This document shows, in pieces, positions 10,503 through 45,507 of a stretch of DNA of 64,000 nucleotides. The position numbers were made by a program, and so were the translations under genes. This stretch comes from a virus. How positions within the stretch are numbered: position 1 is the first letter of the stretch; every line of letters begins with the position of its first letter. The stretch covers positions 1 to 64,000 of the IMG/VR virus record IMGVR_UViG_3300021185_003522. The stretch is one strand, 5' to 3'. The notes under the pieces were generated by a model. That model was given only the letters and a program-made list of their open reading frames with translations, was not told where the DNA came from and did no database searches.

Positions 10503-10937
10503 ATGGAAACAATAGCAATACAGTTTGATCTAACCTCAGACGACGTACACAGTGGTTTATGTTTAGAAATATCTTTTAACAATCAGCTGTTGCAAAAGAT
10601 AGATGCAACAGAGACAACACAAAAAATACAGTTTGGTATTGATTGTGAACCTGGAGATCAACTGTTAGGTTTCACTCTGAAAAACAAAACTCCGCAACAT
10701 ACTGTAATAGATGACCAAGGAGAGATAGTTAAAGATAGTTCTATTGGTATTGAAAACTTTGTGGTCAACCATGTAGCATTAGAACACACATTTTATGAAC
10801 AATGCAGATATAATCATGACTTCAATGGATCACAGGAATCAATAGATGATGACTTCTTTGGAACTATCGGCTGTAATGGTACTGTTTCACTGAAGTTTAC
10901 CAGTCCTGTTTATCGCTGGTTAGTTGACACTATGTAA
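10503..10937 (+). CDS. hypothetical beta-rich protein
   Basis: 144 residues, acidic, with alternating hydrophobic strands (ETIAIQFDLTSDD..., LCLEISFNNQLLQKIDA, VSLKFTSPVYRWLVDTM), suggesting a beta-sandwich. DDQGEIV and QESIDDDFF could be calcium-type acidic loops as in some carbohydrate-binding modules, but this is only a fold impression. It ends three bases before the stop of a convergent gene. Confidence 0.6.
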   Translation: METIAIQFDLTSDDVHSGLCLEISFNNQLLQKIDATETTQKIQFGIDCEPGDQLLGFTLKNKTPQHTVIDDQGEIVKDSSIGIENFVVNHVALEHTFYEQCRYNHDFNGSQESIDDDFFGTIGCNGTVSLKFTSPVYRWLVDTM

Positions 10938-11836: not shown

Positions 11837-12275
11837 GATAGTAATTGGTACCATTGTAGCGGCAATTTTAGTTGCTGTTTTCTTTCAACAGGCACGTGCT
11901 GATAGTGTAAATGCACATATACAAGACCATTACAAAAGTGTTGTGCAACAAAAGCCACACAACCAACAGGTGTGTAGTGAAGTATATGTTCCTAATAGAA
12001 ATACTGTTGGTCCTGACAATATGTTATCAGGTGCAATTATTGGTGGTATAATCGGAAACAATGTTACTAAAAACTTACCAGATGGCGGTACCGCCGGTGC
12101 TATCATTGGAGGACTACTAGGCTTGCAAAATGAACAGAACGCAGGTGGCAACTATCAAACTAGATGCACTACACGTACTTCATATACTGAAACACAAAGC
12201 ACAGTGTATTCGCATAGTACTATTACATTCACAGATAACAACGGTGTAAGACGTAAGTTAAGATTTGTAAAATAA
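11829..12275 (+). CDS. glycine-zipper outer-membrane-type protein
   Basis: 148 residues from the ATG at 11829, chosen for the AGGAGGGGAAC ribosome binding site. A signal-peptide-like helix (VIGTIVAAILVAVFF) ends in ARADS. Residues about 60-95 form a glycine zipper: GAIIGGIIG and GGTAGAIIGGLLG, as in Rick_17kDa/2TM glycine-zipper proteins of alphaproteobacterial envelopes. The C-terminal part is Thr/Ser-rich. It probably sits in or on the envelope of the infected cell. Phage use is unclear. Confidence 0.65.
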   Translation: MNKIVIGTIVAAILVAVFFQQARADSVNAHIQDHYKSVVQQKPHNQQVCSEVYVPNRNTVGPDNMLSGAIIGGIIGNNVTKNLPDGGTAGAIIGGLLGLQNEQNAGGNYQTRCTTRTSYTETQSTVYSHSTITFTDNNGVRRKLRFVK

Positions 12276-12289
12276 TATGCAAATAAAGG

Positions 12290-12318
12290 TTGACAGACAC
12301 AATATGTTGTGTTACTAT
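12290..12318 (+). promoter_or_regulatory. sigma70-like promoter with AAGTTAGAA leader
   Basis: TTGACA at 12290-12295, a 17-base spacer, and TACTAT at 12313-12318. The leader AAAGTTAGAAAATG and the ribosome binding site AAAGGA come before the ATG at 12353. Confidence 0.75.
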
Positions 12319-14331: not shown

Positions 14332-14563
14332 TCAAACATCAACTGGTACAGTTGGAAGATCAAATCAGTATGCTAGTAAACTAAAACGTAGAGAATATCG
14401 TGGCACTGCTGAACACTCAAGCAATCAATTGGCTGCATTCTACAGAGGTAGAAACGTAGTACTAACAGTTGAAAATCCTAACAAGAACGAAACCAACAAA
14501 CGTTTTATACGTGTAAATGCACGTGATGTTTGGTCAGGTGGCGGCAAAGAAAAGAAACGATAG
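14306..14563 (+). CDS. small basic conserved phage protein
   Basis: 85 residues from the ATG at 14306 (MGKKKSRTSQ...). Very basic, with VVLTVENPNKNETNKRFIRV followed by NARDVW. This type of short basic protein ending in a RFIRV-x-A-x-D-V-W strand is, to my knowledge, common among T4-like marine phages without a known role; it may bind nucleic acid. Its TAG overlaps the GTG of the next gene. Confidence 0.55.
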   Translation: MGKKKSRTSQTSTGTVGRSNQYASKLKRREYRGTAEHSSNQLAAFYRGRNVVLTVENPNKNETNKRFIRVNARDVWSGGGKEKKR

Positions 14564-15132
14564 TGCTTGGTGCATTTCAAGATTATGGAAATGGATTATA
14601 CTATCTCGACCAAGTATTTAAAGACGGCATCAACTTAGCAAATATCAAGAGAACTTACCGGGAGACACCTACACAGTGGCAAATGCTAACGCCGAATAGG
14701 CTGATGGCAATACCAAACAACAATGACTATGATCATTATAACATAGGCAAACAGTTGGTAGAACCAATTTGTGATGTTACTGGCTTTGACAACCTCTCAT
14801 TATCAAATATAGATGTATTCATTGATTTACCCGGACATACACTAAGTTGGCACTTTGATCACGATCATTATAGAGTATTATTGCAGGTATACACTGGTGA
14901 TGTTGCAATACCAGATGGTGGGACGTGTTGGTATATTGGCGAAGAAAACAAAAAATTATTTGAAACTTACGGTACTGACAAACAGGTGAATAAATCTGGT
15001 CTTAGTGTTACAGAAACACAATACAAGCCAGGAGCTGGTTACATAAATGATAATACTCAAAGAAAAGCACATGGCACAAATTGTGTGCGTCCAGGCACGT
15101 TACGTGAAAGTGTGCTATTTACGTTTAATTAA
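14563..15132 (+). CDS. 2OG-Fe(II) oxygenase-like protein
   Basis: 189 residues starting with GTG in a TAGTG overlap. SWHFDHDHYRVLLQVYTGD carries the H-x-D iron ligands (His97, Asp99). RKAHGTNCVRPGTLRESVLF carries the distal His170 and a 2OG-binding Arg (181 or 176). The spacing fits the prolyl/aspartyl hydroxylase-like branch. Substrate unknown. It converges with the minus-strand operon, overlapping by 8 bases. Confidence 0.7.
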   Translation: MLGAFQDYGNGLYYLDQVFKDGINLANIKRTYRETPTQWQMLTPNRLMAIPNNNDYDHYNIGKQLVEPICDVTGFDNLSLSNIDVFIDLPGHTLSWHFDHDHYRVLLQVYTGDVAIPDGGTCWYIGEENKKLFETYGTDKQVNKSGLSVTETQYKPGAGYINDNTQRKAHGTNCVRPGTLRESVLFTFN

Positions 15133-16255
15133 TAAATCCATTTGGTATTAGTTCTTGTTGTGTGAATACTTCCAAGCTGTCTATATCAATAAACCATGCA
15201 AATTTTCCTGGAATATTTTTGTTAGCATAATCTGGTAACAATTCGTTACACTTTTTCATTGCAGTAAAATAATTTAACAGCAGATCCATTCTTCCTGCTG
15301 ATAGAGCATCGTGCATTCTTTGCAATCCTTTAGTGGTAGGCAAATTATGCTTACCGCTAGAGCTTGTCTTCTTTAACAATTGTTTGTCATAATTAGGTAC
15401 CTTGCTTCTACCTAATACGTTATTAAGTTGTATATCTTGACTTGGTTTAAAAAACTGTAAATTAGTTTGGTCGACTCTATTGGATTCCAGCAAATGTTTT
15501 CTGTACAGTATAGAATCTTTTACATAACTTTTAATATTCTCAGCATCTAACCAAAATGCTTTCACATTTGAATATCTCCAATCTCCCTGGGAGCCAGTGT
15601 CCTGATGAACTGTGTACCAACTGTTTTTATACCTTATCAACTGTGGTTTATCGACACCTTTGATGTAACATGCATTATCTTTTATTTTGTAGTTAGGATG
15701 TTGGGATAAACTAGCAGGAGTAAAAGGTAAAGTATGCAAACCTGGACGTCGAAAAAAGGACATTTCATCTGCAAACATCTCATTTTGTTCATCCCAGGTG
15801 ACAGTAGCAATCTCATATGATCCATACTTGCCTTTGTATTTTTCAATTATTGGTAAAGCACAGTGTTTGAATTCTCTATTGTTTTCTAGTTCAATATCAT
15901 CACATGCGAAATAAATCAGCTTATCCAAAACAATATTATTTCTTACGGCAGTATCCAAGATAGTTAGACTGTCTGCACCGCCGCTAAAACAAAGGTTCAC
16001 CTCATTATAGTTTGCTTTCAAATATTCAAGGTAATTTTTGTTGTAATCTTGATTCATATCAATTGAAATATCACTGAGTTGGTTACGTATTTCTTCTAGT
16101 TGTGTATCTACAAAAGTAACAAAATTATTTGTGCTGATTTCATACCATAAGGCTAATAGTTTGTTATCAAACTTATAGCCATTTGCGGTCCAATAGCAAG
16201 TATGCTTTTCTTCTTCTACACGTTTTGTTGAATCTAATATTATGTTTATGTCCAT
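15125..16255 (-). CDS. PP-loop ATP-pyrophosphatase (asparagine-synthase-C-like)
   Basis: 376 residues. NEVNLCFSGGADSLTIL has an intact SGG-x-DS PP-loop (residues 91-96) that binds the ATP pyrophosphate. No glutaminase domain is present. It starts in a TAATG overlap with the asparagine-synthase-like gene upstream, whose own PP-loop is degenerate. The two may act together, one supplying ammonia and the other the adenylating site; this is inference. The target for amidation or condensation is unknown. Confidence 0.65.
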   Translation of the reverse strand: MDINIILDSTKRVEEEKHTCYWTANGYKFDNKLLALWYEISTNNFVTFVDTQLEEIRNQLSDISIDMNQDYNKNYLEYLKANYNEVNLCFSGGADSLTILDTAVRNNIVLDKLIYFACDDIELENNREFKHCALPIIEKYKGKYGSYEIATVTWDEQNEMFADEMSFFRRPGLHTLPFTPASLSQHPNYKIKDNACYIKGVDKPQLIRYKNSWYTVHQDTGSQGDWRYSNVKAFWLDAENIKSYVKDSILYRKHLLESNRVDQTNLQFFKPSQDIQLNNVLGRSKVPNYDKQLLKKTSSSGKHNLPTTKGLQRMHDALSAGRMDLLLNYFTAMKKCNELLPDYANKNIPGKFAWFIDIDSLEVFTQQELIPNGFIN

Positions 16256-17508
16256 TAACTTGCAAACCTAGTTTTGTTAAGTGTTATAGGGTAGTCATGC
16301 TCTTGCATGTATGAAACCTGCCAATGTTTATACCCTGAATTTTTTAATTTGGCAGTTGTGTTTAAAAAACATTGAAATAGTCTTTGATCTGTAAGAGGGT
16401 ACCTGCCTTCAATTCCGTGATGCCCGCATATCATATCGCTTCTGTGTATTTGCCTATGTAGTTTACTGTCTGCATAATCATGCCATGGGTATATAGTCCG
16501 TAGATCAGCAGGCCATCCACCTATTATTTTTCCTATTCTGCCAAAAGCAGTTTTGTCCGGCTGATAGTCATCATATAACTCATCTCCTCCTATACCGCTT
16601 ATGCAAATTTTTTGACTACGAGGCAAAAAATGATTTTGAAGTATACTAGTAAGTGCTTGAGCATTCTGTCCTTTGGTGTATTCAAAATTATAAAGTTTAA
16701 ACATAGCCAATGTGACAGGAATGACTGCACTGTCATCTGCCCGATCAATCAATGGTTTCAATTGTAAACTCATTCTCTCTGACAGTACATCAGGATCTTC
16801 TCTACCAATTTTGCTAACAGTATACATATCTGCGTTGAAGAATTTTCTTGCACTGCATACAATAACACCTGCATCTATACCAGAACTAAGCATATACGTA
16901 GAACGTCCTGGTTCATGTCTATCTTTGATGGCTTGTTCAAAGGCGTCAAATACTTTATCATAGTTGTCTACCGTTTGACTTAGATTCCATTCAGTGGTTG
17001 TTTGTATATCTAATTCAAAGGTGTGTTTATCTATAGTATAAATTCTATTTTCTTGTGCTCTAACTGCACTAGGCGCATGGCTCAGTACAAAGTCGACTGT
17101 GCTACCTGCTATAAAACTTCTAGTTTCTCTATCATAATAAAAGAAAAGATTTTTTGAACTCCATTGATCTACTGCAAAGACAATGTGGGTATCAGTTACG
17201 TATGTAAGGCTGTATTCTCCAATGAGACTTTTAATTAGATCTACAGTAGTATCTAAATGACGGTCAAGATTGTTTACAATCCAATCAGTATCGTTACCGT
17301 TGCTATTGTACGTGCTACCGTTGTATACCAAGGTGCCGTGTTTATTCTGTATTGGTTGCGGTGGGCTAGTGCCTTGAGTGCTGAGAAGAGCATGTCCGAA
17401 ATGCTCATTCTCAACATCAAGTCGATTAAATTGCTCAGGGCCTCTGAGCAGGATACTATTGGTTACCGTTTTGATCGGTATGTTATAAGAATAATAGTAT
17501 CCACACAT
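16255..17508 (-). CDS. asnB-like: asparagine-synthase-like amidotransferase with degenerate PP-loop
   Basis: 417 residues, shorter than typical AsnB (about 550). Met-Cys2 begins a class II glutaminase domain, with RGPE and LVYNGSTYN where AsnB has the glutamine-binding loops. The synthetase part shows LSSGIDAGV (residues 207-215) in place of SGGLDS, then SGIGGDELYDDY and GIEGRYPLTDQRLFQ as in AsnB. Ammonia release from glutamine looks possible; ATP binding is doubtful given the changed loop. Third gene of the minus-strand operon after TctA and TctC. Confidence 0.75.
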   Translation of the reverse strand: MCGYYYSYNIPIKTVTNSILLRGPEQFNRLDVENEHFGHALLSTQGTSPPQPIQNKHGTLVYNGSTYNSNGNDTDWIVNNLDRHLDTTVDLIKSLIGEYSLTYVTDTHIVFAVDQWSSKNLFFYYDRETRSFIAGSTVDFVLSHAPSAVRAQENRIYTIDKHTFELDIQTTTEWNLSQTVDNYDKVFDAFEQAIKDRHEPGRSTYMLSSGIDAGVIVCSARKFFNADMYTVSKIGREDPDVLSERMSLQLKPLIDRADDSAVIPVTLAMFKLYNFEYTKGQNAQALTSILQNHFLPRSQKICISGIGGDELYDDYQPDKTAFGRIGKIIGGWPADLRTIYPWHDYADSKLHRQIHRSDMICGHHGIEGRYPLTDQRLFQCFLNTTAKLKNSGYKHWQVSYMQEHDYPITLNKTRFAS

Positions 17509-17510
17509 TT

Positions 17511-18398
17511 TTATTTAGAAGCTAATTTGTTTCCGGTTAATGTGCTAACAATATCCCAAAATGCTTTCTTTTGGTCTTTGATTTCAGTTCCTGGAATCAT
17601 GAAAGCCTTTTTAAGATAATTTGCTACAGTTTCGCTTTCTATAACTCTGTTAAGATCAGCTTTAACTGTTGCACGTTGATCTGCAGGAATGTTTACTGCA
17701 TGCCAATACTTTAATGTACCAGTTTTGTTTAGGTGCCATGTTGGGAATACAACACTTAATGGTTGCTTTCCGCCAACTTCTACTGGCGAACTTACTGCTA
17801 AACATTTAATATGCTTGTTACTGATCTCACGTTTTGTAAATCCAGTGTACATCATGTCAACATCGCCAGCAACTAAACCTTTAAGTGTTTTTTTACTGCC
17901 TTTAAAGTCAACTCTTACAAATTTGATTCCTGTGTCTTTTGATAAGTCATCATAGATACCATCAATTAATGTAGCAGTGTTACCAACAGTAACTTTCTTT
18001 TTACCTTTTAAAAATTCTGGAATACTGTTTGCAGCTTCATCAGCTCTGATACACATTGTTTGGTTTCTATTGTAGAACACACTTATGAAACTATCATCAT
18101 TGACTTCAACATGGCAACCTCTTGATTCATCTTTAACATATCTACCTGTGTCACGTAAAAATACTCCAGGTCTGCCTGTGTCTTTGGCCATGTATACTTT
18201 GTTGTTTACACAGTTTCTTGTTACTACTACTTCACTGTCATAACCTAATCCTTTAAGAGCGTCGCTTATAAGGTTACTTTCTGCGAAAGCATTTCCACTA
18301 GTACCACTTGGTACTATTACATCTAATACTGGCTTAGCATATGCACTAGATGTTATTGCAAAGAATATTGCAATTATCGTCAACTTAATTTTTGTCAT
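17511..18398 (-). CDS. tctC-like: TctC-like periplasmic substrate-binding protein
   Basis: 295 residues with a signal peptide (IKLTIIAIFFAITSSAYA). The order of elements fits the Bug/TctC family: LDVIVPSGTSGNAFAES, an LKGLGYDSEVVV strand, KKTLKGLVAGDVDMMYTGF and a C-terminal helix with VANYLKKAFMIPG. The usual G-G-x-T-D loop is changed. It lies directly after the TctA gene. Known role: capture of carboxylates such as tricarboxylates or other small organic acids in the periplasm. Substrate unknown. Confidence 0.65.
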   Translation of the reverse strand: MTKIKLTIIAIFFAITSSAYAKPVLDVIVPSGTSGNAFAESNLISDALKGLGYDSEVVVTRNCVNNKVYMAKDTGRPGVFLRDTGRYVKDESRGCHVEVNDDSFISVFYNRNQTMCIRADEAANSIPEFLKGKKKVTVGNTATLIDGIYDDLSKDTGIKFVRVDFKGSKKTLKGLVAGDVDMMYTGFTKREISNKHIKCLAVSSPVEVGGKQPLSVVFPTWHLNKTGTLKYWHAVNIPADQRATVKADLNRVIESETVANYLKKAFMIPGTEIKDQKKAFWDIVSTLTGNKLASK

Positions 18399-18408
18399 TT
18401 TTAATCCT

Positions 18409-19770
18409 CTATGAAAAATGTATTTGATAAAATATTCCTAAACTTTCGCTTAGTTTGTCTTGTAGTACGAACGCAATGATTAAACACATTGGTTCTGTTT
18501 TCCTTAGCAAGTATCCTAACGGAGCCAGTACTAATAGAATGGTCATATAGTAACGTGCTTCATGACCCATTGCACCTAGATAGTATGTTAAGCAAACTAG
18601 AAAAATACCAGTGCCCCACAACATGTGTTTGACACTTATTTTCTTAAGTACGTTTACATATCTAACTAGTGGCCAGGCCATTAAAAAACATGTTGCATTT
18701 ATGATTATAAACCATAGTGCAATCTGTTCAAACATTCCTACTTCAACAGTTGTTTCATAACTGATGTGGTAGCTCTTTATATCCATGAAACTTAAAAGCA
18801 CAGCTTCACTTACACTAATAGGTATTCCTATCAACATCAATGGCAATAAACTTACAAGTCCTGTACTGTTGTTAGCAGTCTCTGCACTCACTAAACTTTT
18901 AATGTCACCTTTGTCGTCGTAGGAGCCTTGTTTAACACGCATCTTCTTCTCAATTGCATAGCTGATATTCGAACTTACGTTGCTACCAATATGAGGTACT
19001 AATCCTATAAATGCTCCAAATGCACTACCACGAAGACTGCTTGGAAGATGTTTTAAAAACTCTTTAAGGTGTTCATAAAAACTATTCTTATCTTCATATT
19101 CAAGATTGCTGGTATAATTGTTAAACATACCAGCTGTCTGTAACAGTGTAGGAAACACATACAGTGCAACAATTACCGGAAACAATGGTATTTGATGCAT
19201 TAGTAATGGAAAGGTTTCGTAAGGAATAACTTCAGGAAGAAACACAAAGTAGGGGCTCCAATTTGTGCCAATTAATCCTAAAAGTATACCAATACTAAAC
19301 ACAAGAATATTCTGTATAATACTCTTGCCTAATAGAAAACATATGCTTGTACTTGCTAAGAACAAAATTATAATTTGTACATTGTTGTTGTAAAAATTTT
19401 TAATCAAGTCTATAGCAAAAGGCATTACCATGTACACACTAATCAGTGCAACAAATGATCCTAGTACACTGCCCAAGGCCGCATTTGAAATAGCAAAGTT
19501 ACCTACTCCGCGATTGAACATTCTATTGCCTTCAACCACTGCGGGTAAACTTGAACTTTCTCCTGGCACACCAAACACTGTGGCAACAATACTTCCTGAA
19601 AACTGACTACTGCTTATCACAGCAAGATAGTACAGTAACATTTGCAACATACTAGCATCTTTTAACAGAGGGTAGCTCATCACAATCATTATGGTATTGC
19701 CTACACCAGGCACAAACCCAGAAATAAATCCAAGCAGTGTTCCTAGTACAACAAAAAGTGTATCGTCCAT
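18409..19770 (-). CDS. tctA-like: TctA-like large membrane subunit of a tripartite tricarboxylate transporter
   Basis: 453 residues from the ATG at 19770, chosen for GGAAAG seven bases upstream; GTG at 19788 and ATG at 19785 are alternatives. About 11-12 hydrophobic segments are visible. LGFISGFVPGVGNTIMIV and SQFSGSIVATVFGVPGESSS match the TctA glycine-rich and GvPGe signature loops. Together with TctC it would import organic acids. No TctB-type small subunit is seen, so it would need a host TctB or work without one. Transporter genes of this size are rare in phages. Confidence 0.8.
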   Translation of the reverse strand: MDDTLFVVLGTLLGFISGFVPGVGNTIMIVMSYPLLKDASMLQMLLYYLAVISSSQFSGSIVATVFGVPGESSSLPAVVEGNRMFNRGVGNFAISNAALGSVLGSFVALISVYMVMPFAIDLIKNFYNNNVQIIILFLASTSICFLLGKSIIQNILVFSIGILLGLIGTNWSPYFVFLPEVIPYETFPLLMHQIPLFPVIVALYVFPTLLQTAGMFNNYTSNLEYEDKNSFYEHLKEFLKHLPSSLRGSAFGAFIGLVPHIGSNVSSNISYAIEKKMRVKQGSYDDKGDIKSLVSAETANNSTGLVSLLPLMLIGIPISVSEAVLLSFMDIKSYHISYETTVEVGMFEQIALWFIIINATCFLMAWPLVRYVNVLKKISVKHMLWGTGIFLVCLTYYLGAMGHEARYYMTILLVLAPLGYLLRKTEPMCLIIAFVLQDKLSESLGIFYQIHFS

Positions 19771-19790
19771 CAATATGCTTTCCATCACTA

Positions 19791-19819
19791 ATGATATAAT
19801 ACATTATTCAAACTGTCAA
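19791..19819 (-). promoter_or_regulatory. promoter for the tctA operon with inverted repeat
   Basis: On the minus strand TTGACA (19819-19814), a 17-base spacer, and TATCAT (19796-19791). The -35 box lies in the inverted repeat CAAACTG-TCAAA-CAGTTTG (19809-19827), an operator-like arrangement. Confidence 0.5.
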
Positions 19820-19827
19820 ACAGTTTG

Positions 19828-19971
19828 GTAAAAGTATTAGGTTTATTTTAAATTAAAAACTAGGCGGTATGCCGTACGGTGGGCGTTCTGTTAAGTAAAG
19901 GGTTTCCCCTGGCGTCCATTTAGTCCGAAGTCACTGAATGTGGCTTTGTTACATCTATTTACACAAAAAGG
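19828..19971 (+). other. intergenic region with small hairpins, no gene
   Basis: Divergent gap between the tctA promoter and the plus-strand promoter at 19972. Stems visible by eye include AAGTCAC-TGAAT-GTGGCTT (19929-19947) and the GGGTTTCCCC turn near 19900. The middle is more GC-rich than its surroundings. It could be a structured RNA on either strand or a protein-binding region. I see no open frame worth calling. Confidence 0.3.
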
Positions 19972-20311: not shown

Positions 20312-21406
20312 ATGTCAAGTTCAAGTCAAGTAGAATATAGAACAGTTACTACTGCTGGTGCAAAAAGTGCAATTAAAGTAGCATTCAAAAAACAAAGACC
20401 AATATTTTTATGGGGCCCTCCAGGTGTTGGTAAGTCAGATATAGTTCAGCAGATCACAGATGATGCTGGTGGTTATATGTTTGATTTACGTTTAGGTCAA
20501 ATGGATCCAACAGACCTTAGAGGTATGCCTTACTTTAACAAAGAAGATGGTGTAATGGACTGGGCTCCGCCTGTTGATCTTCCAACACCTGAGTTTGCTA
20601 AAGACTATCCAATGATCACAGTGTTCTTGGATGAGATGAATTCAGCTCCAGCAAGTGTGCAAGCGGCCGCTTATCAGTTGGTGCTTAACAGAAGACTAGG
20701 CAAGTATGTGTTGCCGGACAATGTGGTTATTATTGCCGCTGGTAATAGAGAGTCAGACAAAGGTGTTACGTTCCGTATGCCTACTCCGCTTGCAAATAGA
20801 TTTGTACATGTTGAAATACGTGCAGATTTTGAGGCTTGGTTAGATTGGGCAGTGGATAAAAACATTCATCCTGATGTAGTAGGTTACTTGAGTTTTGCCA
20901 AGCAGGACCTGTATGACTTTGATGCTAAGAGTGCTTCAAGAGCTTTTGCTACTCCAAGATCATGGAGTTTTGTAAGTGAGCTTATTGAAGAAGACATGAG
21001 TGATACTACTGCAACTGATCTTATTGCAGGTACTGTGGGTGAAGGCTTAGCAGTAAAGTTTCAAGCACACAGAAAGATTGCTGGTAAACTTCCTAATCCA
21101 ACTGATGTACTTGCTGGTAAGGTAAGCAAATTAGATGTACAAGAAGTTAGTGCAATGTATTCACTTACTATTAGTATGTGCTATGAGCTTAAAGAAGCAT
21201 TAGCAACTGTTAAAGATGCTGAGTTTCACAAGATGAGTGATAACTTCTTTAGGTTTATGATGGATAACTTTGAAACTGAGTTAGTTGTTATGGGTGCAAG
21301 GATTGCATTGACAACATATGCTATTCCGTTTCAACCTACTAAACTTAAAAACTTTGATGAGTTTCATCAACGTTATGGAAAATATATCCTTGCAAGTCAA
21401 GGGTAA
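20312..21406 (+). CDS. MoxR-like AAA+ ATPase
   Basis: 364 residues. Walker A is GPPGVGKS (residues 35-42), Walker B is TVFLDEMNSAP (about 104-114), and sensor and arginine regions follow (IIAAGNRESDKG; MPTPLANRFVH). MoxR ATPases act as chaperone-like partners of VWA-domain proteins, loading metals or remodelling complexes. Here the VWA partner is at 22661, four small genes further on, with its own promoter of the same class. MoxR/VWA pairs occur in large phages, but the target is unknown. Confidence 0.85.
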   Translation: MSSSSQVEYRTVTTAGAKSAIKVAFKKQRPIFLWGPPGVGKSDIVQQITDDAGGYMFDLRLGQMDPTDLRGMPYFNKEDGVMDWAPPVDLPTPEFAKDYPMITVFLDEMNSAPASVQAAAYQLVLNRRLGKYVLPDNVVIIAAGNRESDKGVTFRMPTPLANRFVHVEIRADFEAWLDWAVDKNIHPDVVGYLSFAKQDLYDFDAKSASRAFATPRSWSFVSELIEEDMSDTTATDLIAGTVGEGLAVKFQAHRKIAGKLPNPTDVLAGKVSKLDVQEVSAMYSLTISMCYELKEALATVKDAEFHKMSDNFFRFMMDNFETELVVMGARIALTTYAIPFQPTKLKNFDEFHQRYGKYILASQG

Positions 21407-22660: not shown

Positions 22661-23920
22661 ATGGCAGATACAGTAAACAAGGATATTGCAGATAAGTTCA
22701 AGGACATACTAGGTCCAATGGATCCTGCACGTGATAGAGAAGTACGTGAAATATTAATTACTGCAAGGGTTGGTATGCTGTTACGTGCTAGTTTCTTTGG
22801 TAACCTAGCAACACGTTTGAAACTTGTTAATGCTGATGAATGGTGTTCTACTGCAGCAACTGATGGTAGAAACTTTTACTACAATTCAAAGTTTATTAAA
22901 ATGCTACGTCCTAAAGAAGTTGAATTCTTGTTTGGACATGAAGTATTACATTGTGTATATGATCATATGGGCAGACGTGGTGACAGAGATCCACAGTTGC
23001 ATAACATAGCCGCTGACTATTGTGTTAATGCTGATCTATCAAAGCACAGAGTAGGTGAGTTTATTAAAACTGTTCCATGTTTGTATGATTCTAAATATGA
23101 AGGTTGGAGTTCAGAAGAAGTATATGATGACCTTTATGAGAATGCTGATAAGATTGATATGGACGAACTTGTTAAGCAGATGATTGATCAGCACTTGGAT
23201 GGTAAAGAAGGTGAAGGCGATGAGGGAGAAGATGGCAAGAGTGGACCAGCAAAGTTCAGCAAAGAAGAACGTGAAAAGATCAAAGAAGAAATAAAAGAAG
23301 CAATGCTAAGTGCCGCACAGGCATCGGATCCAGGCAATGTACCAGCAGGTGTTAAACGTATTGTTGCACAACTTACTGAGCCTAAGATGAACTGGAGAGA
23401 CTTGCTACGTATGCAGATGCAAAGCACTATCAAATCAGACTATACATTTAAACGTATGCACCGTAAGGGTTGGCACATGGATGCTATACTTCCGGGTATG
23501 GACAATGATGAATATGTTGATATCTTTTGTGCATTGGACATGAGTGGTTCAATTGGCTCTGAACAGGGTAGAGACTTTATGAGTGAAGTCAAAGGCATTA
23601 TGGAAGAATATGGACAGTTCCGTGTTACCATTTGTTGTTTTGATACTGATGTTTATAATGTGCAGGTGTTTACAGATGACAACATAGATGAGATCGACGA
23701 GTATGAAATCAAAGGTGGTGGCGGTACTGACTTTGATTGTGTGTTCAATTACCTAAAAGAAGAAGGCATTGATCCTAAAAGATTGGTTATGTTTACAGAT
23801 GGTTATCCTTATGATAGTTGGGGTGATCCTAACTACTGTGATACAGTGTTTATTATACATGGCGATAAGAATCCTAATCCGCCCTTTGGTACTTGGGCAA
23901 TATATGAAGATGATTCATGA
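22661..23920 (+). CDS. VWA-domain protein with metallopeptidase-like N-terminus
   Basis: 419 residues. FLFGHEVLHCVYDHMGRR has an HExxH zinc-type motif (His93-His97) as in DUF2201-type putative metallopeptidases. A Glu/Gly/Asp-rich linker lies around residues 175-200. The C-terminal VWA-like domain carries CALDMSGSIGS (about 290-300), the DxSxS metal-site motif, and GGGGTDFDCVF. These proteins work with MoxR ATPases; the partner is at 20312. Cytoplasmic. The end overlaps the next small gene by 17 bases. Confidence 0.8.
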   Translation: MADTVNKDIADKFKDILGPMDPARDREVREILITARVGMLLRASFFGNLATRLKLVNADEWCSTAATDGRNFYYNSKFIKMLRPKEVEFLFGHEVLHCVYDHMGRRGDRDPQLHNIAADYCVNADLSKHRVGEFIKTVPCLYDSKYEGWSSEEVYDDLYENADKIDMDELVKQMIDQHLDGKEGEGDEGEDGKSGPAKFSKEEREKIKEEIKEAMLSAAQASDPGNVPAGVKRIVAQLTEPKMNWRDLLRMQMQSTIKSDYTFKRMHRKGWHMDAILPGMDNDEYVDIFCALDMSGSIGSEQGRDFMSEVKGIMEEYGQFRVTICCFDTDVYNVQVFTDDNIDEIDEYEIKGGGGTDFDCVFNYLKEEGIDPKRLVMFTDGYPYDSWGDPNYCDTVFIIHGDKNPNPPFGTWAIYEDDS

Positions 23921-34523: not shown

Positions 34524-34837
34524 TACCAACCCATAATTAATTTGGTTTCTTCTGGAACCATTTCCATTGTAAACTGCGGTTCGAATACCAACTGTCTATC
34601 TATAGCACGCACACCTTCAGTATTAATCATTGCTTGTTCAATGTCATTACAGATTTGATCAGCAAACGGACATGCCATTGATGTTAGTGTGTGCTCCACC
34701 CGACACCTATCGCCATCTATTTCAATTTTGTAAATTAACCCTAAGTCGTATACACTAACACTGGGCATTTCTGGGTCATAGACTTTTTGTAATGATTCAA
34801 TCACACGTTGTCTAAGATCATTTTCTTCTAACTGCAT
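34520..34837 (-). CDS. sufT-like: SufT/PaaD/MIP18-family Fe-S assembly protein
   Basis: 105 residues, the whole being one MIP18-type domain: VYDPEMPSVSVYDLGLIYKI, then TLTSMACPFADQI with the conserved Cys56. Known members help insert or mature Fe-S clusters (SufT, PaaD, MIP18/CIAO2). It lies downstream of metK and carbamoyltransferase, in the same minus-strand block as the five radical SAM enzymes, which need 4Fe-4S clusters, so a maturation role is a reasonable inference. It overlaps the carbamoyltransferase stop by 10 bases. Confidence 0.8.
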   Translation of the reverse strand: MQLEENDLRQRVIESLQKVYDPEMPSVSVYDLGLIYKIEIDGDRCRVEHTLTSMACPFADQICNDIEQAMINTEGVRAIDRQLVFEPQFTMEMVPEETKLIMGWY

Positions 34838-36333
34838 ACTGTTACGCCGTATTCTTTTTCAAAGCGATTAGCATCAGACCTGTCATCAACCATTGGCTCG
34901 CCTCTTATGTTAAGGCTAGTATTTAACAACATGGGACAACCTGTCTTTCTATACCATGCACTCAATAACCGCCTTATGCCACTATCATTATCTGGAACTG
35001 TTTGTACTCTGCTTGTTCCATCCACATGTATAATAGCCGGAAACTCTTCTGGCTTGGTGCAACGAGCAACCACCTGCATGTAACGACTTGTGGGTTGATA
35101 AAGAGGCATTGCAAAATAGTCATGTACATGCTCTTCAAGTATTACAGGAGCAAAAGGTCTAAACTTTTGTCTACGTTTAATTTCATTTACTCGATCTTTA
35201 ATGTCTGCTCCGCGTGGATCAGCAAGTAAACTTCTATTGCCCAGTGCTCTTGGACCAAATTCTGCACGTCCATTTGCAACTCCAACAATTTGATTTGTTT
35301 CTAATTCTTTCAACAGTTCGTCTACTGGATATTCTCCTGAGATATTTGAGCCCAGATAAGGTGTTGTAAAGTTTATGTCTCTACCATATGCATAAGCGGC
35401 CGCACCTAAACTGCTTCCTGCATCGCCTGGGTTTGGCATTATCCATATTTTGTTAAACAGTTCTCCCAATCGTCGATTGATAACACAGTTAAGAGCAACA
35501 CCGCCCATGTAAACTAGATTTTTACTAGTGCCAAGAGCCTTTGCTCTACGCATCACACCCATAACCATTTCTTCGCATAACCGTTGTCCTGCGGCGGCAA
35601 TATCCTCTACTGTAACATCAGCTGCAAACTCAACGTCATCAATGCCAAGGTGTAGATTATCTTTGAACAGTGGAATATCTGTAAATCGCACAGTTGCACG
35701 TTTTAATGTATTGTATGCCTTGTCAGCATCGCCGTAAGCAGCCATACCCATTGTGATGTATTCTTCATCCATTGGCTTTAATCCGCAACGTTTGGTTACT
35801 GCACTGTAGAACATACCAATACTGTGTGGATATGATTGCTTGTATAACAGTTTGTAATTTGCTTTAGCGTGTTCGCCTGCTAGGCATGCACCGTTGTAGT
35901 ATGCATGGTATATGCTGATTGTATCTGATTCACCAATAGCATCTATTACCACAACTGTTGCATCATCAAATGGTGATGTTTGAAAGCCTGCGGCCGCATG
36001 AGATAGATGATGTCCAACACTGCTGATTTCTGCAGATGTTTCATTCATTATATAAGGAATAGTACGTAGTAGTTCAGTTTGTGTACGCCAAGCACCGCCC
36101 CAACTTTCTCCGCTTTTGATTTTACGCAGTTGTCGTAGATGTGGCTTTTCATAGTATACTATCTTATCAAAAGGTCCGTATTCTTTTGCCTTCTGTTGTA
36201 GACTTACTGGAATAGTGCTATCGTTTTTGATCTTGCTGTAACGTTCTGCATGTCCTGCAAACAATACTCGGTGATTGTGCAGTACAGTTAAAGCCGCGTC
36301 GTGAAATCCTGCACTAACTCCTAGTATTCTCAT
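34828..36333 (-). CDS. carbamoyltransferase (NodU/CmcH/TobZ family)
   Basis: 501 residues, somewhat shorter than NodU or TobZ (about 560-570). MRILGVSAGFHDAALTVL is the N-terminal Kae1-like start. VGHHLSHAAAGF (about 106-117) gives the metal-binding histidines. EFGPRALGNRSLLADPR and LNTSLNIRGEPMV belong to the C-terminal YrdC-like-linked domain. Known reaction: transfer of a carbamoyl group from carbamoyl phosphate through carbamoyl-AMP to a hydroxyl of a sugar or antibiotic. Such genes occur in other marine phages; the acceptor is unknown. Confidence 0.9.
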   Translation of the reverse strand: MRILGVSAGFHDAALTVLHNHRVLFAGHAERYSKIKNDSTIPVSLQQKAKEYGPFDKIVYYEKPHLRQLRKIKSGESWGGAWRTQTELLRTIPYIMNETSAEISSVGHHLSHAAAGFQTSPFDDATVVVIDAIGESDTISIYHAYYNGACLAGEHAKANYKLLYKQSYPHSIGMFYSAVTKRCGLKPMDEEYITMGMAAYGDADKAYNTLKRATVRFTDIPLFKDNLHLGIDDVEFAADVTVEDIAAAGQRLCEEMVMGVMRRAKALGTSKNLVYMGGVALNCVINRRLGELFNKIWIMPNPGDAGSSLGAAAYAYGRDINFTTPYLGSNISGEYPVDELLKELETNQIVGVANGRAEFGPRALGNRSLLADPRGADIKDRVNEIKRRQKFRPFAPVILEEHVHDYFAMPLYQPTSRYMQVVARCTKPEEFPAIIHVDGTSRVQTVPDNDSGIRRLLSAWYRKTGCPMLLNTSLNIRGEPMVDDRSDANRFEKEYGVTVCS

Positions 36334-36863
36334 TATAACCTGTCTTCGTATTCAGATACCGGAGGTATTTCACCGGTAGTCATTTCAGTATCTTGTGTGG
36401 AAAATGTTATTGTAGCAACATAGTCGCATTTGTTGTTGCATATTGGATCTACTATTGGTGTGAATACCATGCCTTCTTCATAGGTCCAGTTGCCTGTTTG
36501 CCATCCAGTTTTGTTCTCACTAGTACCTGAGGTCTGACTGGTAGCAGTAACATCAAAATACATTTTTATATTTTGATCATCTGCAGGTAAGTCACCTCTG
36601 TTTACTGTATAGCCATTGTTGCCATCCGCAGTAATCTCAGCAGTCATCCATACAGGATCTGTGCCTTGAAAAAAGTCTAGCCAATCTTTTAAGGTTTTTT
36701 TCCAATCTTTGTCAACAGTGTTGGTAATTGTGCCACCATTGGGATCAACAGTATGAATGTGATGTTTGGTACGCACTGCACTACTGCGATCCTCTATCCA
36801 ATTAATTGTGTAGGGAGTATTGTTTACAATTGTTAATACATTAGACCAATGATTTTTACTCAT
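36333..36863 (-). CDS. hypothetical beta-rich protein
   Basis: 176 residues, acidic, Thr/Asn-rich, all-beta in appearance (NVLTIVNNTPYTINWIEDRS; KMYFDVTATSQTSG; YVATITFSTQD). Two Cys lie close together (ICNNKCDY). The start resembles lipid-binding cytolysins such as aegerolysins only superficially. It shares one base with the carbamoyltransferase start and abuts the metK stop, so it is part of the metK operon. Family not recognised. Confidence 0.6.
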   Translation of the reverse strand: MSKNHWSNVLTIVNNTPYTINWIEDRSSAVRTKHHIHTVDPNGGTITNTVDKDWKKTLKDWLDFFQGTDPVWMTAEITADGNNGYTVNRGDLPADDQNIKMYFDVTATSQTSGTSENKTGWQTGNWTYEEGMVFTPIVDPICNNKCDYVATITFSTQDTEMTTGEIPPVSEYEDRL

Positions 36864-37967
36864 TTACCAACCTATCTTCTCCCAAGGAACATCTTTGTTG
36901 CCAAAGTGTCCGTATGTGCAATTTGCACTGTAGTTGTAAAAGTTGAAAAGATCAAATCTATCAATTATACCTTTAGGTGTGAGATCAATGTTTTCACGTA
37001 TAAACTTTTGTATACTGCGATTGTGTCCATTTGAATCTATGTAGACACTGGTAGGTTCTTTTACACCAATGGCATATGATATCTGTATTTGACACCAGTC
37101 TGCCATGTCGTCTGCTACAACGTTCTTTGCTAACCAACGTGCCATATATGCTGCCGTTCTATCTACTTTTGTAGGATCTTTTCCTGAGAAAGCACCACCA
37201 CCATGAGGAGCAAAGCCGCCATAGGTATCAACGATAATTTTGCGTCCTGTAAGGCCAGTGTCACCATCAGGACCACCAATGACAAAATTGCCAGTTGGAT
37301 TAAGATGGAATACAGTCTTGTCATCTATTAAATCTCCTAGTACTTCTTCGCATGCCGATCTTGTAGCCATACGTGCGGGTTCATAAAAGCTCTCATCTTT
37401 GTGTTGTTGACTTACCACAACTTGATCAATACGTTTTACCTTACCGCCGTCATACTCTACACTAACTTGACTCTTAGCATCAGGTCCAAGATATTTGTAT
37501 CCATCTACACGTTTTTCTTTTATATTTTTTAATATTTCATGAGAATAGTAAATTGGGGCGGGCAGATACGCATCATTCCCATTGCATGCGTAACCAAACA
37601 TAATACCTTGATCACCTGCACCAAAATCGTCTGTGCCCAGTGCAATGTCGGCACTTTGTGAGTGCAATTGATTGTTGATTGTTTTATTATCAACTGTCAG
37701 TTTATCCCAATGAAATCCCGCTTGCTCGTAGCCAATCTCTTTTACTTTGTCTCTTATAATTTGTTCAACTTGTTCATCAGAGATATTAAAGTTTTTAACT
37801 TCACCTGCTAGTACAACATAGTTTGTTGTGACCATTGTTTCAACTGCTACTCTGGTTGTTTCATCACCGGCTTTGAGTCCAGCGTCAACCAATGCATCTG
37901 ATATTTGGTCTGCTATTTTGTCAGGATGCCCTTCGCTCACTGACTCTGATGTAAAAATATAACTCAT
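36864..37967 (-). CDS. metK: S-adenosylmethionine synthetase
   Basis: 367 residues (bacterial enzymes about 384). TSESVSEGHPDKIADQISDA is the N-terminal signature, GAGDQGIMFGYACN is signature 1, and GGAFSGKDPTKVDRTAAYMA is signature 2. GGPDGDTGLTGRKIIVDTYG is intact. It makes SAM from methionine and ATP. The five radical SAM genes upstream in the same direction use SAM, which explains its presence. Preceded by a perfect TTGACA-17-TATAAT promoter at 38067-38095. Confidence 0.95.
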   Translation of the reverse strand: MSYIFTSESVSEGHPDKIADQISDALVDAGLKAGDETTRVAVETMVTTNYVVLAGEVKNFNISDEQVEQIIRDKVKEIGYEQAGFHWDKLTVDNKTINNQLHSQSADIALGTDDFGAGDQGIMFGYACNGNDAYLPAPIYYSHEILKNIKEKRVDGYKYLGPDAKSQVSVEYDGGKVKRIDQVVVSQQHKDESFYEPARMATRSACEEVLGDLIDDKTVFHLNPTGNFVIGGPDGDTGLTGRKIIVDTYGGFAPHGGGAFSGKDPTKVDRTAAYMARWLAKNVVADDMADWCQIQISYAIGVKEPTSVYIDSNGHNRSIQKFIRENIDLTPKGIIDRFDLFNFYNYSANCTYGHFGNKDVPWEKIGW

Positions 37968-38068
37968 TTGTATATAAAAGGATCCCTTTTCCGTAGTTCT
38001 TTAAGTTTCTTACGATATCGTATTTCTAGTTTTATCTTATTAAAAAGATTCTTAATCCATGTTATCAT
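37964..38068 (-). CDS. 34-residue basic peptide before metK
   Basis: ATG at 38068, stop overlapping the metK ATG (ATGA). Highly basic, helical sequence (ITWIKNLFNKIKLEIRYRKK). Overlaps the upstream gene by 17 bases. It may serve as a leader for translational coupling to metK, or be a membrane-active or nucleic-acid-binding peptide. Its ATG lies in the -10 box of the promoter at 38067, so a transcript from that promoter would lack this start codon; a second ATG two codons on could serve. Confidence 0.45.
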   Translation of the reverse strand: MITWIKNLFNKIKLEIRYRKKLKELRKRDPFIYK

Positions 38069-38738
38069 TATACACACCTTTTGTCTGTTTGTCAAGTAGT
38101 TCTGGATCAAATAATGGAACTGCACAAAAAGTTAAAGTACCTTTGTTTATCTTTGATACAGAACGCTTATAAGCAATTACAGTTTCTAAGTTATAGTAAT
38201 TATACTCAGGATCAATAGGGGTTGTCCATTTTAAACTGCTGCCAATTTGTGTTCCATGTTGAACATCATAGTTTGGTTCAACAGTACCTGCAAATTCATT
38301 GAAGTCAGTGTTCCAGTCTAGTAAGTATGGCAGTATTAGCAGGCGCCATCCTTTTGACATTTTTGCACGCCAAGGATAGTTAAGAATTTTAAATCTATAT
38401 TCATATAGACTGTAATCATCATCTGCCCAAGGTTTATCTCCTTTATTACCAAATATTGTGCCGTCAACCATTGGGGCTGATACTCTGCCCCTTGCAAAAT
38501 ATGTGTCGTATCCATCTAAGTCTTCTGGTAATGGAATAGTATAACCAATACTTGCAAGTCCTCTAAAACCTAAACAATTTCTTATTGTTTGTTGTTCAGC
38601 AAATGTAACTTCATCTCTTTTTCCTTTAAGTTTTTTAAACCATTCAGGCATGTGGTTACGCATAGGTGTAGGTGCTGGACATTTAAGGTACTGTATTTCT
38701 GGATCATCACAGTATTCCCACTCAAGAAAATTATTCAT
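38052..38738 (-). CDS. conserved phage protein, possibly DUF6065-like
   Basis: 228 residues. Features: YLKCPAPTPMRNHMPEWFKK, CLGFRGLASIGYTIPLPEDL, YEYRFKILNYPWRAKMSKGW and LKWTTPIDPEYNYYNLETVI. The order 'P-x-P-x-R ... PxWf-K ... C ... GY-x-IPLP' resembles the DUF6065 group, whose function is unknown. It comes last in a run with three other biosynthetic genes, so it may be a partner or substrate-handling enzyme of the radical SAM set (inference). Confidence 0.55.
   Translation of the reverse strand: MNNFLEWEYCDDPEIQYLKCPAPTPMRNHMPEWFKKLKGKRDEVTFAEQQTIRNCLGFRGLASIGYTIPLPEDLDGYDTYFARGRVSAPMVDGTIFGNKGDKPWADDDYSLYEYRFKILNYPWRAKMSKGWRLLILPYLLDWNTDFNEFAGTVEPNYDVQHGTQIGSSLKWTTPIDPEYNYYNLETVIAYKRSVSKINKGTLTFCAVPLFDPELLDKQTKGVYNDNMD
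38067..38095 (-). promoter_or_regulatory. consensus sigma70-like promoter for metK
   Basis: On the minus strand TTGACA (38095-38090), a 17-base spacer, and TATAAT (38072-38067): a perfect consensus lying in the last codons of the gene at 38052-38738. The start site would fall near 38061, giving metK a leader of about 90 bases. Confidence 0.65.
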
Positions 38739-39787
38739 ATCAAAGGTACCTGCAGTTGTTTACTATCTGCCCAAGTGTAATCATATTCAGCATATGAATC
38801 ACTGGTTTTAATACTATATACATCAAGATGATTAGTTAATATACTTAAAACTCCTTGAAAATCTTTACAAGCAAAACTTTTCTCCAGATCAACCTGTCCA
38901 ATTTTTGGGTGTCCTATTGTTAAACTTGGATCGTCAGGATCAAAATTATTAGCAACTAGCCATTTCCTAAACTCGTTTAGTTTAGTTTGCATAAAAGGCC
39001 TATCACGGGTATCTTGTCCCCATTCTATGTCAAAGTCACCAGCAGCCTCTGTTTGTGGTTTTAATGTTGTAGTTGTTAATTCATCAATACGACTGTCTGC
39101 ACCTTCATCCTGGAACACTTCATAATGGTGTTTACCAACTGCTTTGTTAACTCCAACATACACACCGCCGTGGTCTCTTGCTATAGAATCAATTCCAAAC
39201 AGGTTGTAGTCTTCGTCGTCTAGTATAAACCGCGGTGCATGTAACCAACACATTACGTTACTCGGACGTACCCATTCTGGAGCACTGGTTACTTTACCTA
39301 AGCTCATGATTAAACATTCTGCCTCGTGACATAGTAAGTTCAATTGTCTTATGTGCCATCGTGTTTCTGCATCTGCATTTGTGTAATGTTTGCTCATTGC
39401 ACCACTTACTCCTTGTGTTTCTTCAAAGTATAAATGCAACTGGTTAAGTTTGTCATGATTGAGGCCAATAATTTCGCAATTTCCTAATTTGCTCCAACGC
39501 TTAGTTGTCATGTTTGCAACTGTAAAATAGTCTTTTATTTCGTAGTCAATGCTACTACCGTTTATAGCCGCAATGGTTTGATTTATTTGCGTTACAATCA
39601 CATCAAGATCACGTTCGCAATTTGGAAAGCCCATAAAACAGTAATTCTTTTCGAGATGTAGTTTATTATCTAAAACATCATTGAATGCATTTAACCATTT
39701 TTTACTTAGACTGTTATCATAAACATCAAAGTATACGTGTAATAAACCATCTGCTCCACGCAGTTTCATTTCTATTCTATCCAGCAT
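38735..39787 (-). CDS. hypothetical protein linked to the radical SAM genes
   Basis: 350 residues, soluble. VYFDVYDNSLSKKWLNAFND, LLCHEAECLIMSLGK, FDIEWGQDTRDRPFMQTKLN and GHPKIGQVDLEKSF stand out. ATGA overlap downstream and 11-base overlap with the radical SAM gene upstream, so it is translationally coupled to it. I recall similar proteins next to radical SAM genes in marine phages, but no function. It could be a partner or a modification target. Confidence 0.55.
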   Translation of the reverse strand: MLDRIEMKLRGADGLLHVYFDVYDNSLSKKWLNAFNDVLDNKLHLEKNYCFMGFPNCERDLDVIVTQINQTIAAINGSSIDYEIKDYFTVANMTTKRWSKLGNCEIIGLNHDKLNQLHLYFEETQGVSGAMSKHYTNADAETRWHIRQLNLLCHEAECLIMSLGKVTSAPEWVRPSNVMCWLHAPRFILDDEDYNLFGIDSIARDHGGVYVGVNKAVGKHHYEVFQDEGADSRIDELTTTTLKPQTEAAGDFDIEWGQDTRDRPFMQTKLNEFRKWLVANNFDPDDPSLTIGHPKIGQVDLEKSFACKDFQGVLSILTNHLDVYSIKTSDSYAEYDYTWADSKQLQVPLI

Positions 39788-41105
39788 CGATTCTATCCCA
39801 CCATTCTAATGTTTCTTCGCATCCTTGCGGGCCAGCAAATATATCTCTCATGCATAGTGCATTAGGACGTATATTTTCTAAAGTAAGTATTCTGCGTTTA
39901 CCTTTACGCATACCTCTCCAGTATTCTTCTTCGCTATACTGCTCTTGAAGGGTAGGTCTATTTTTAAGTTGCAGTAGTACATCACGCAGTGCGTTTCCAA
40001 GTATAAATTTATTTACTATGCTATCAATCTTGCGGTCAAGTAAATCACGTGGCAGTGCAAGTGGCGACATTATAACATCAGGCGTAAAAGTGAATATTAC
40101 TTTTGCTAATATATCCACATCCAAATCATCAGCCAGTGCCTGCATATTACTTACGTCCTGCATACCTGGCAGTGTAAGAGTGTAGTCTAAACGCATCATA
40201 CGTCTATTATGAGCTAATGGTAAAAGCACTTTAAAATTATCAACAAATTCTTTATACTTCAATCCTGTACGTATGTATTCGCCGATTGCACCTGTACCAT
40301 CTAAACTAGCACATATTTGCCAGTCACGTATATTTTTTAGTATATCATGGCCTAAGTGTATACCTTTGTATTTTATTCTACTCAAGTTTGTATTATACCT
40401 TGCATACAACTTTGGACCATCACCAAGTTCCACTATACGTTTCATGTACCGCCAGTGCTGTTCGTACATCAGTGGTTCGCCACCTACCCAATATATCTCT
40501 TCGACCCTGTGTTCCTCAACTGCATCTGAAAACTCTTTTTCAATTTGTGTGTCTTGAAATTTGCTTATTTCTTTACGAACCTCTGGACGCATCCAGTTGT
40601 TTTTTGGGTTGTCTAAATTAACCATGTTGTGTTTTTTCTGTTCTGTTTCCCAACTTGAACTTAGCATATCACCGCAGGTACGACACTTAAAGTTACACAA
40701 GTTTGAAAATCTATAATCCCAACTGATTGGCTTCATGCTGGTCCAACCTGTATCGTCTGTACTGGTCCACAGTTCATCATAACGGTGTTGAAACAAATGC
40801 CAAAAGTATGTTCTATATACATCAGTGTTTAACAGTTTGTCTGTACAGACTTCGCACTCGCTAAGTTTTTCGCCTGCCATCATTCTGCGTCTAACACTAC
40901 GCATGTGTTCGCTATTCCAATGTTCTTCTAATGTATTTGGGTTGTACTTTCCTGTGCCTGATGCAGTATCAATATACTGTTCAAAGCTCTGTGCTGGTTC
41001 ACGTGATGCACAACACATTCTACGTTCAGTCTGGGGAGACAGATAGGTATGTGTCCAAGGAGCCATGCACAATGTTTCAGGCTTTTGTTCAGGCCTGTCT
41101 ACCAT
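39777..41105 (-). CDS. radical SAM protein with N-terminal SPASM/twitch-like domain (1)
   Basis: 442 residues. The radical SAM motif is LCNFKCRTC (Cys137, 141, 144), with WVGGEPLMY as the GGE SAM-binding motif. The N-terminal part has TLCMAPW...MCCASRE and SECEVC (Cys13, 31, 32, 84, 87), the cysteine pattern of a SPASM/twitch auxiliary cluster, here before the radical SAM core instead of after it. Known chemistry: reductive SAM cleavage to a 5'-deoxyadenosyl radical. Substrate unknown. One of five paralogs. Confidence 0.85.
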   Translation of the reverse strand: MVDRPEQKPETLCMAPWTHTYLSPQTERRMCCASREPAQSFEQYIDTASGTGKYNPNTLEEHWNSEHMRSVRRRMMAGEKLSECEVCTDKLLNTDVYRTYFWHLFQHRYDELWTSTDDTGWTSMKPISWDYRFSNLCNFKCRTCGDMLSSSWETEQKKHNMVNLDNPKNNWMRPEVRKEISKFQDTQIEKEFSDAVEEHRVEEIYWVGGEPLMYEQHWRYMKRIVELGDGPKLYARYNTNLSRIKYKGIHLGHDILKNIRDWQICASLDGTGAIGEYIRTGLKYKEFVDNFKVLLPLAHNRRMMRLDYTLTLPGMQDVSNMQALADDLDVDILAKVIFTFTPDVIMSPLALPRDLLDRKIDSIVNKFILGNALRDVLLQLKNRPTLQEQYSEEEYWRGMRKGKRRILTLENIRPNALCMRDIFAGPQGCEETLEWWDRIDAG

Positions 41106-45489: not shown

Positions 45490-45502
45490 ATGTATAATTA
45501 TA
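45487..45502 (-). promoter_or_regulatory. TATAATTA-N5-ATG element, minus strand
   Basis: On the minus strand TATAATTA (45502-45495), TACAT, ATG (45489-45487). One base differs from the TATAAATA-N5-ATG pattern. It lies in one of the few gaps in this block and no Shine-Dalgarno sequence is seen. Confidence 0.35.
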
Positions 45503-45507
45503 CAGAT

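Follow-up and report, generated by a model that had tools for sequence, protein, structure and literature searches.

A 64,000-nucleotide (nt) stretch of viral DNA (the window), comprising positions 1 to 64,000 of IMG/VR virus record IMGVR_UViG_3300021185_003522, contains a minus-strand operon of four genes that joins two components of a transporter to two putative ATP-using enzymes. The full record (genome G000; 125,233 bases) is probably a genome fragment and encodes a T4-type portal (phrog_213), a major head protein (phrog_138), an 1103-amino-acid (aa) tail sheath, and tail fibre genes. These virion genes share the contig with metabolic genes of host type, as in a phage auxiliary metabolic gene set, and G000 is a T4-like, jumbo-type myovirus; the phage label given in an earlier note, made from the sequence alone, was therefore appropriate. 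The features of the locus are as follows:

15125-16255, minus strand: stand-alone PP-loop (ATP pyrophosphatase-type) protein
16255-17508, minus strand: AsnB-like amidotransferase
17511-18398, minus strand: TctC-like periplasmic solute-binding protein
18409-19788, minus strand: TctA-type permease
19791-19819, minus strand: operon promoter, TTGACA-17-TATCAT
19809-19827, no strand assigned: operator-like inverted repeat covering the -35 box
19862-19950, plus strand (opposite the operon): conserved element without coding capacity, which may be a structured RNA

The same block of genes was found in two further viruses, IMGVR_UViG_3300028115_000070 (G001, locus L002) and IMGVR_UViG_3300025120_000183 (G002, locus L005).

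The four open reading frames (ORFs) are closely spaced, with a 10-nt gap between tctA and tctC, a 2-nt gap between tctC and asnB, and a 1-nt overlap between asnB and the PP-loop gene. The promoter is sigma-70-like, matches 11 of 12 consensus positions, and has its -35 box inside a perfect inverted repeat with 8-bp arms (CAAACTGT-CAA-ACAGTTTG) that occurs as an exact copy nowhere else within the window. Because the -10 box ends at 19791, 3 nt ahead of the listed GTG of tctA, the ATG at 19770, which has GGAAAG ahead of it, is the more likely start. Both the promoter position and the inverted repeat sequence are kept in G002, whereas G001 has a different promoter (TTGACA/TATAAT) at the same place and carries ACATG-TTTTTT-CATGT instead of the repeat. 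The earlier note had proposed closely spaced genes behind a promoter with an operator-like repeat, with a transporter of the tripartite tricarboxylate transporter (TTT) type and an asparagine-synthase-like pair in one operon that lacks TctB; this description agrees with the ORFs and promoter and with the assignments below, which draw on Pfam matches (TctA and AsnB-like), a viral profile (TctC-like), and the SGGADS motif (PP-loop). On the plus strand, a gene at 14530-15132 converges tail to tail with the PP-loop gene; its product has an HxD...H-like pattern recalling 2-oxoglutarate (2OG)-Fe(II) oxygenases and no Pfam match, and G002 does not have the gene at that place.

Judged by its domain match (209 bits against a cut-off of 28.9) and by a profile-profile alignment to bacterial TctA over 423 columns (E=4e-28), the viral TctA is a true member of the PF01970 family. 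The TctA motif, defined as G-x3-G-x3-G-x2-PGxG in transmembrane (TM) segments TM1 and TM7 (PMC5812351), is intact in TM1 as GxxxGxxxGxxPGxG (GTLLGFISGFVPGVG), whereas the TM7 copy (GSAFGAFIGLVPHIG) reads PHxG, not PGxG, in all three viruses. In 395 bacterial genomes, all from a single phylum, the best TctA identities were 27-29%, and plasmids gave 28%; the viral sequences made their own long branch in a quick tree that carried long-branch warnings. The TctA phylogeny that the earlier note had suggested for finding the donor thus does not allow one to be named. Recent acquisition from a host was likewise unsupported, with a guanine-plus-cytosine content of 35.5% compared with 37-39% for the genome and at most ~29% identity to bacterial TctA.

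As a single sequence, the TctC-like protein scores below the PF03401 cut-off (17.3 bits against 27), and the G001 copy matches NMT1 (22.5 bits). A profile built from the three viral copies retrieved TctC proteins from the 395 bacterial genomes, mostly beside TctA or TctB, and on this basis the binding protein is assigned to the TctC type. It is kept in all three viruses, with four conserved cysteines and a signal peptide recognised by eye (SSAYA/KP), as expected of an exported TctC-type binding protein of a TTT system. None of the three operons contains an ORF for TctB, and a crude hydropathy survey of the 125-kb G000 record yielded no convincing small candidate with four TM segments. Near its block, G002 encodes a 4-TM PsiE (phosphate-starvation-inducible E; L052 18272-18667, minus strand), which is not TctB.

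The viral pair resembles Salmonella TctCBA in having a TctA with the repeat motif in TM1 and a variant of it in TM7, an exported TctC-type binding protein, and adjacent genes for the two; however, it is phage-borne, is without TctB, and has the order A-C rather than the common C-B-A. The viral TctA is also shorter than that of Salmonella (459 versus ~504 aa), with the C-terminal segment gone and PHxG in the TM7 repeat, and the conserved cysteines of the binding protein, like the low identity of TctA, set the pair apart from bacterial TTT systems. The literature treats TctA as the core of the transport system, one that may work without TctB and TctC and perhaps acts alone in archaea, although findings that challenge this view have also been reviewed (PMC5898192, PMC5812351).

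The AsnB-like protein consists of an N-terminal nucleophile (Ntn) glutaminase domain with Cys1 followed by a shortened synthetase domain (PF00733, 35.8 bits against a cut-off of 21), which places it in the AsnB superfamily; its 58-59 bits to the asparagine synthetase equivalog TIGR01536 fall far under the cut-off of 267. Residue alignment with E. coli AsnB revealed equivalents of Cys1, the oxyanion residues Asn74-Gly75, Asp98, GxGxD[ED], and Lys449; however, the viral protein is only ~18-22% identical, ~100 residues shorter at the C-terminus, without equivalents of Arg49 and Glu76, and with S[SA]G in place of SGG. It is not an ordinary asparagine synthetase but a member of a shortened subfamily, rich in viral sequences, in which the glutamine and ATP motifs are altered. 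Within that subfamily, AsnB-like proteins from glycan clusters (Synechococcus phage S-SCSM1, L020, and L076-L088) share the S-S-G-x-D motif; however, they are 24-30% identical and lie among glycosyltransferases without a TctA, TctC, or PP-loop partner. In the tree, the cassette protein falls in a viral clade (L064-L070) outside the glycan-cluster branch. Two loci with nearest-clade AsnB-like genes, L066 (5004-7901) and L067 (3133-6023), have genes for an SSF sodium:solute symporter, an APS-kinase-like protein, and a cytidylyltransferase-like protein on the opposite strand (by Pfam for L066).

The PP-loop protein carries a canonical SGGADS, which conforms to the SGGxDS motif of the PP-loop ATP pyrophosphatase superfamily and is invariant in the three homologues, and its C-terminal blocks are strongly conserved. 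It was found in the three cassette-bearing viruses only. Neither Pfam nor other family models matched it to a known family, a profile search of PDB returned only chance matches to LOV domains, and a profile comparison with AsnB indicated no kinship beyond the motif. The SGGxDS motif, near residue 91, is shared with LarE, QueC, and PAPS reductase PP-loop ATPases; however, matches to LarE (E=0.014-0.07), QueC-like proteins (0.21), and PAPS reductase (0.15) were not significant, and the C-terminal half of the viral protein is without known relatives.

The same gene order was present in both relatives recovered, as the earlier note had suggested checking: G001 has TctA-TctC-AsnB-PP, and G002 has TctA-TctC-AsnB-AsnB-PP, in which the tandem AsnB-like copies (L005 10272-12849) are 59% identical to one another. 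Most of G002 (~32 kb) is collinear with G000, and G002 has the block at the same locus, between a MoxR-like gene and the gene of a 93-97-aa protein. By comparison of their common genes (both records are partial), G001 has little in common with G000 beyond the block, the best others being a 90-aa protein (68%) and a ClpP-like protein (45%), and its block sits among other genes; directly after it lies a gene for the ribose/galactose isomerase RpiB (L002 9833-10342). Identities between G000 and G001, and between G000 and G002, were respectively 84% and 70% for TctA, 68% and 51% for the TctC-like protein, 66% and 60-62% for AsnB, and 48% and 56% for the PP-loop protein. Since the TctA of G000 is closer to that of G001 than to that of G002, even though G001 otherwise shares little with G000, the block was probably swapped between phage lineages, with some internal reshuffling. 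Nonsynonymous divergence (dN) across the cassette genes was 0.13-0.45 and synonymous divergence (dS) was saturated, which indicates purifying selection. The possibility that the cassette is a dS outlier between G000 and G002 was rejected, as flanking genes also ranged from dS 0.3 to saturation. Two plus-strand genes of the window, encoding a MoxR-like ATPase (22661-23920) and a DUF2201/VWA metallopeptidase-like protein (20312-21406), are 93-96% identical between G000 and G002 while other genes are far more diverged, and G002 also carries a SufE-like gene of Fe-S metabolism (L005 4174-4593, minus strand).

The nearest cultured relatives of the G000 portal and MoxR-like ATPase are jumbo myoviruses at ~42-52% identity, specifically Sinorhizobium phage Phosso (469 kb), Agrobacterium phage Atu_ph07 (490 kb, ATPase only), and PA5oct-like phages (287 kb), and the G001 helicase is also closest toward Phosso and Atu_ph07. 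A search for DsrC as a hint of a SUP05 host found none.

As grounds for refutation, the earlier note had named a phylogeny in which the four genes were gathered independently and separately in relatives, and no such pattern was seen. Scans of 2.9 million viral contigs for TctA and the PP-loop protein, seeded with short peptide patterns that can miss distant relatives, returned no contigs beyond the cassette-bearing ones, and a first scan of genome contigs with TctA found no relative. A broader AsnB scan recovered 33 further viral loci, and hidden Markov model searches of their surroundings detected no TctA, TctC, or PP-loop protein of this kind. Among annotated phages, the TctC-like and PP-loop queries gave no match and TctA gave seven weak ones; the one inspected (H1) comes from a Salmonella contig whose tctCBA locus is of the usual kind, and the rest also resemble bacterial contamination. 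In ~530 bacterial genomes, the PP-loop search produced one short match in a stop-containing frame, which was taken as chance. As TctA and the PP-loop protein were never found apart in the viral scans, the character of the four-gene block as one unit is well supported.

Just upstream of the operon promoter, the three viruses share a non-coding element with the layout GGGCGTTCT..TTAAGTAAAG-[hairpin]-GGCGTCC..-[hairpin], present once per virus (19862-19950, plus strand, in the window; ~10855-10931, minus strand, in L052; and 12195-12295, plus strand, in L051). The G000 and G002 copies are almost the same, and the G001 copy can still be recognised despite different flanking genes. In 1.17 Mb of locus DNA (overlapping loci), the element occurred at no place other than upstream of the cassette, two degenerate matches being put down to chance. 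Rfam contains no family that matches it. Folded on the strand opposite the operon and compared with shuffled sequences, the G000 element (19875-19950) folded better (z=-3.2) and that of G001 did not (z=-0.5), and in the three-sequence alignment one pair was compensatory and several were broken. RNA structure is thus suggested rather than proven.

Taken together, the block can be read as a phage operon with a metabolic role, transferred and selected as a whole, that would serve to import a small anion and to amidate, most simply, the imported solute; this reading is offered tentatively, at a little less than an even chance. The TctC-like protein would be exported to the host periplasm and there bind a small anion, the likeliest kind for this family being a mono-, di-, or tricarboxylate. 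TctA, as a secondary permease, would bring the anion in without a phage TctB, a subunit that may be unnecessary in this system or may come from the host. In the cytosol, the Cys1 Ntn domain of the AsnB-like protein may act as the ammonia source, and the AsnB-like protein and PP-loop ATPase together would use ATP to activate a carboxyl group, yielding an amide or a comparable C-N product. Small-anion uptake is likely and action of the enzymes on the imported solute is plausible. The motif pattern would fit a division of tasks in which the AsnB-like protein supplies ammonia and the PP-loop protein carries out activation with ATP. A stronger version, in which a TTT importer lacking TctB and an amidotransferase split between the AsnB-like and PP-loop proteins make up a dedicated "import and amidate" pathway, exchanged among jumbo phages as one mobile unit with its own structured non-coding RNA, is considered unlikely.

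Several observations weigh against the import-and-amidation reading. In the AsnB-like protein, Arg49 is replaced by Leu, Glu76 by Ser, and SGGLDS by S[SA]GxD[ASV]; as the first two are glutamine-binding residues of E. coli AsnB and the last its ATP motif, it is uncertain whether the viral protein uses glutamine and how it handles ATP. Since AsnB relatives at a greater distance are located in glycan clusters, the enzymes may have a substrate other than the imported solute. The cassette genes are partly discordant in their relationships, the PP-loop protein being nearer between G000 and G002 and TctA and TctC nearer between G000 and G001. Finally, AlphaFold models from the three-sequence alignments had low predicted local distance difference test scores (42 for the PP-loop protein and 37 for the TctC-like protein) and were set aside.

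The main alternative is that one transcript serves two functions, TctA and TctC importing a carboxylate as a nutrient that supplies energy or carbon, and the two enzymes modifying something unrelated to it, such as a surface glycan of phage or host, a nucleotide sugar, or a tRNA. The S-S-G-x-D-S AsnB subfamily indeed occurs amid glycosyltransferases and methyltransferases, in S-SCSM1, Margulisbacteria, a phage-like contig, and many viral contigs, and carbamoyltransferase and radical-SAM genes lie at ~34-47 kb of the window; however, in neither G000 nor G002 does an evident glycan cluster adjoin the cassette, the closest AsnB clade to the cassette is outside the glycan-cluster branch, and TctA/TctC and the PP-loop protein always accompany this AsnB type. 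This alternative is given a somewhat lower chance than import and amidation. Alternatively, the direction may be reversed, with the enzymes building an amide-type compound, siderophore-like or for signalling, that TctA/TctC retrieves or moves over the inner membrane. Enzymes of the AsnB-like and PP-loop types often tailor secondary metabolites, and there were weak matches to lasso-peptide cyclase and N-acetylglutaminylglutamine amidotransferase models; however, binding-protein-dependent TTT systems work in uptake and the operon is without other biosynthetic genes, which makes a reversed role improbable.

Phages use membrane proteins for exclusion, and insertion of TctA/TctC could accordingly alter the host membrane or block superinfection, with transport incidental. 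Exclusion alone would not require the TctA motifs and a binding protein under purifying selection, and there was no defence-system match, leaving a very slight chance of such a role. A chance neighbourhood of independently acquired host genes was already disfavoured and is given a slight chance, marginally above that of an envelope change: G000 and G002 are related and count as one observation of gene order, which leaves two independent locations in all, but the whole set with its upstream element stands at a different place in G001, and neither TctA nor the PP-loop protein was ever single in the viral scans. Against these alternatives, uptake of a small anion coupled to amidation is the reading preferred here.

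A tctA domain hit was reported on a putative SUP05 marine viral contig, its function then unknown (Roux et al., 2014, PMC4164917, in the excerpt available), and viral tctA is also listed in a review (PMC6359870). As in G000, where a neighbouring gene recalls the same family, a 2OG-Fe(II) oxygenase hit is described for that contig set; however, by description, which is the basis of this comparison, the excerpt presents a domain hit only, without hallmark genes, and mentions no operon, TctC, or AsnB/PP-loop pair (PMC4164917). The literature search found no report of the four-gene block, of a TctB-less viral TTT pair, of the PP-loop family, or of the upstream element.

Individual genes for nutrient uptake, pstS among them, are known from phages. 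If the import-and-amidation reading is correct, this phage would bring a whole uptake-and-conversion step, with a binding-protein-dependent secondary importer and two ATP-using enzymes in one operon, which would give viral tctA a testable role and bear on the need for TctB in TTT transport. The block also adds a PP-loop family that matches no known one and a conserved non-coding element.

Elsewhere in the window, the minus-strand region at 34828-46995 encodes a Nol-like carbamoyltransferase and several radical-SAM/SPASM proteins and is probably a modification island, and the product of a minus-strand gene at 53616-63767, 3383 aa long and with an FG-GAP repeat, is probably a giant protein of the tail or one that serves adhesion.

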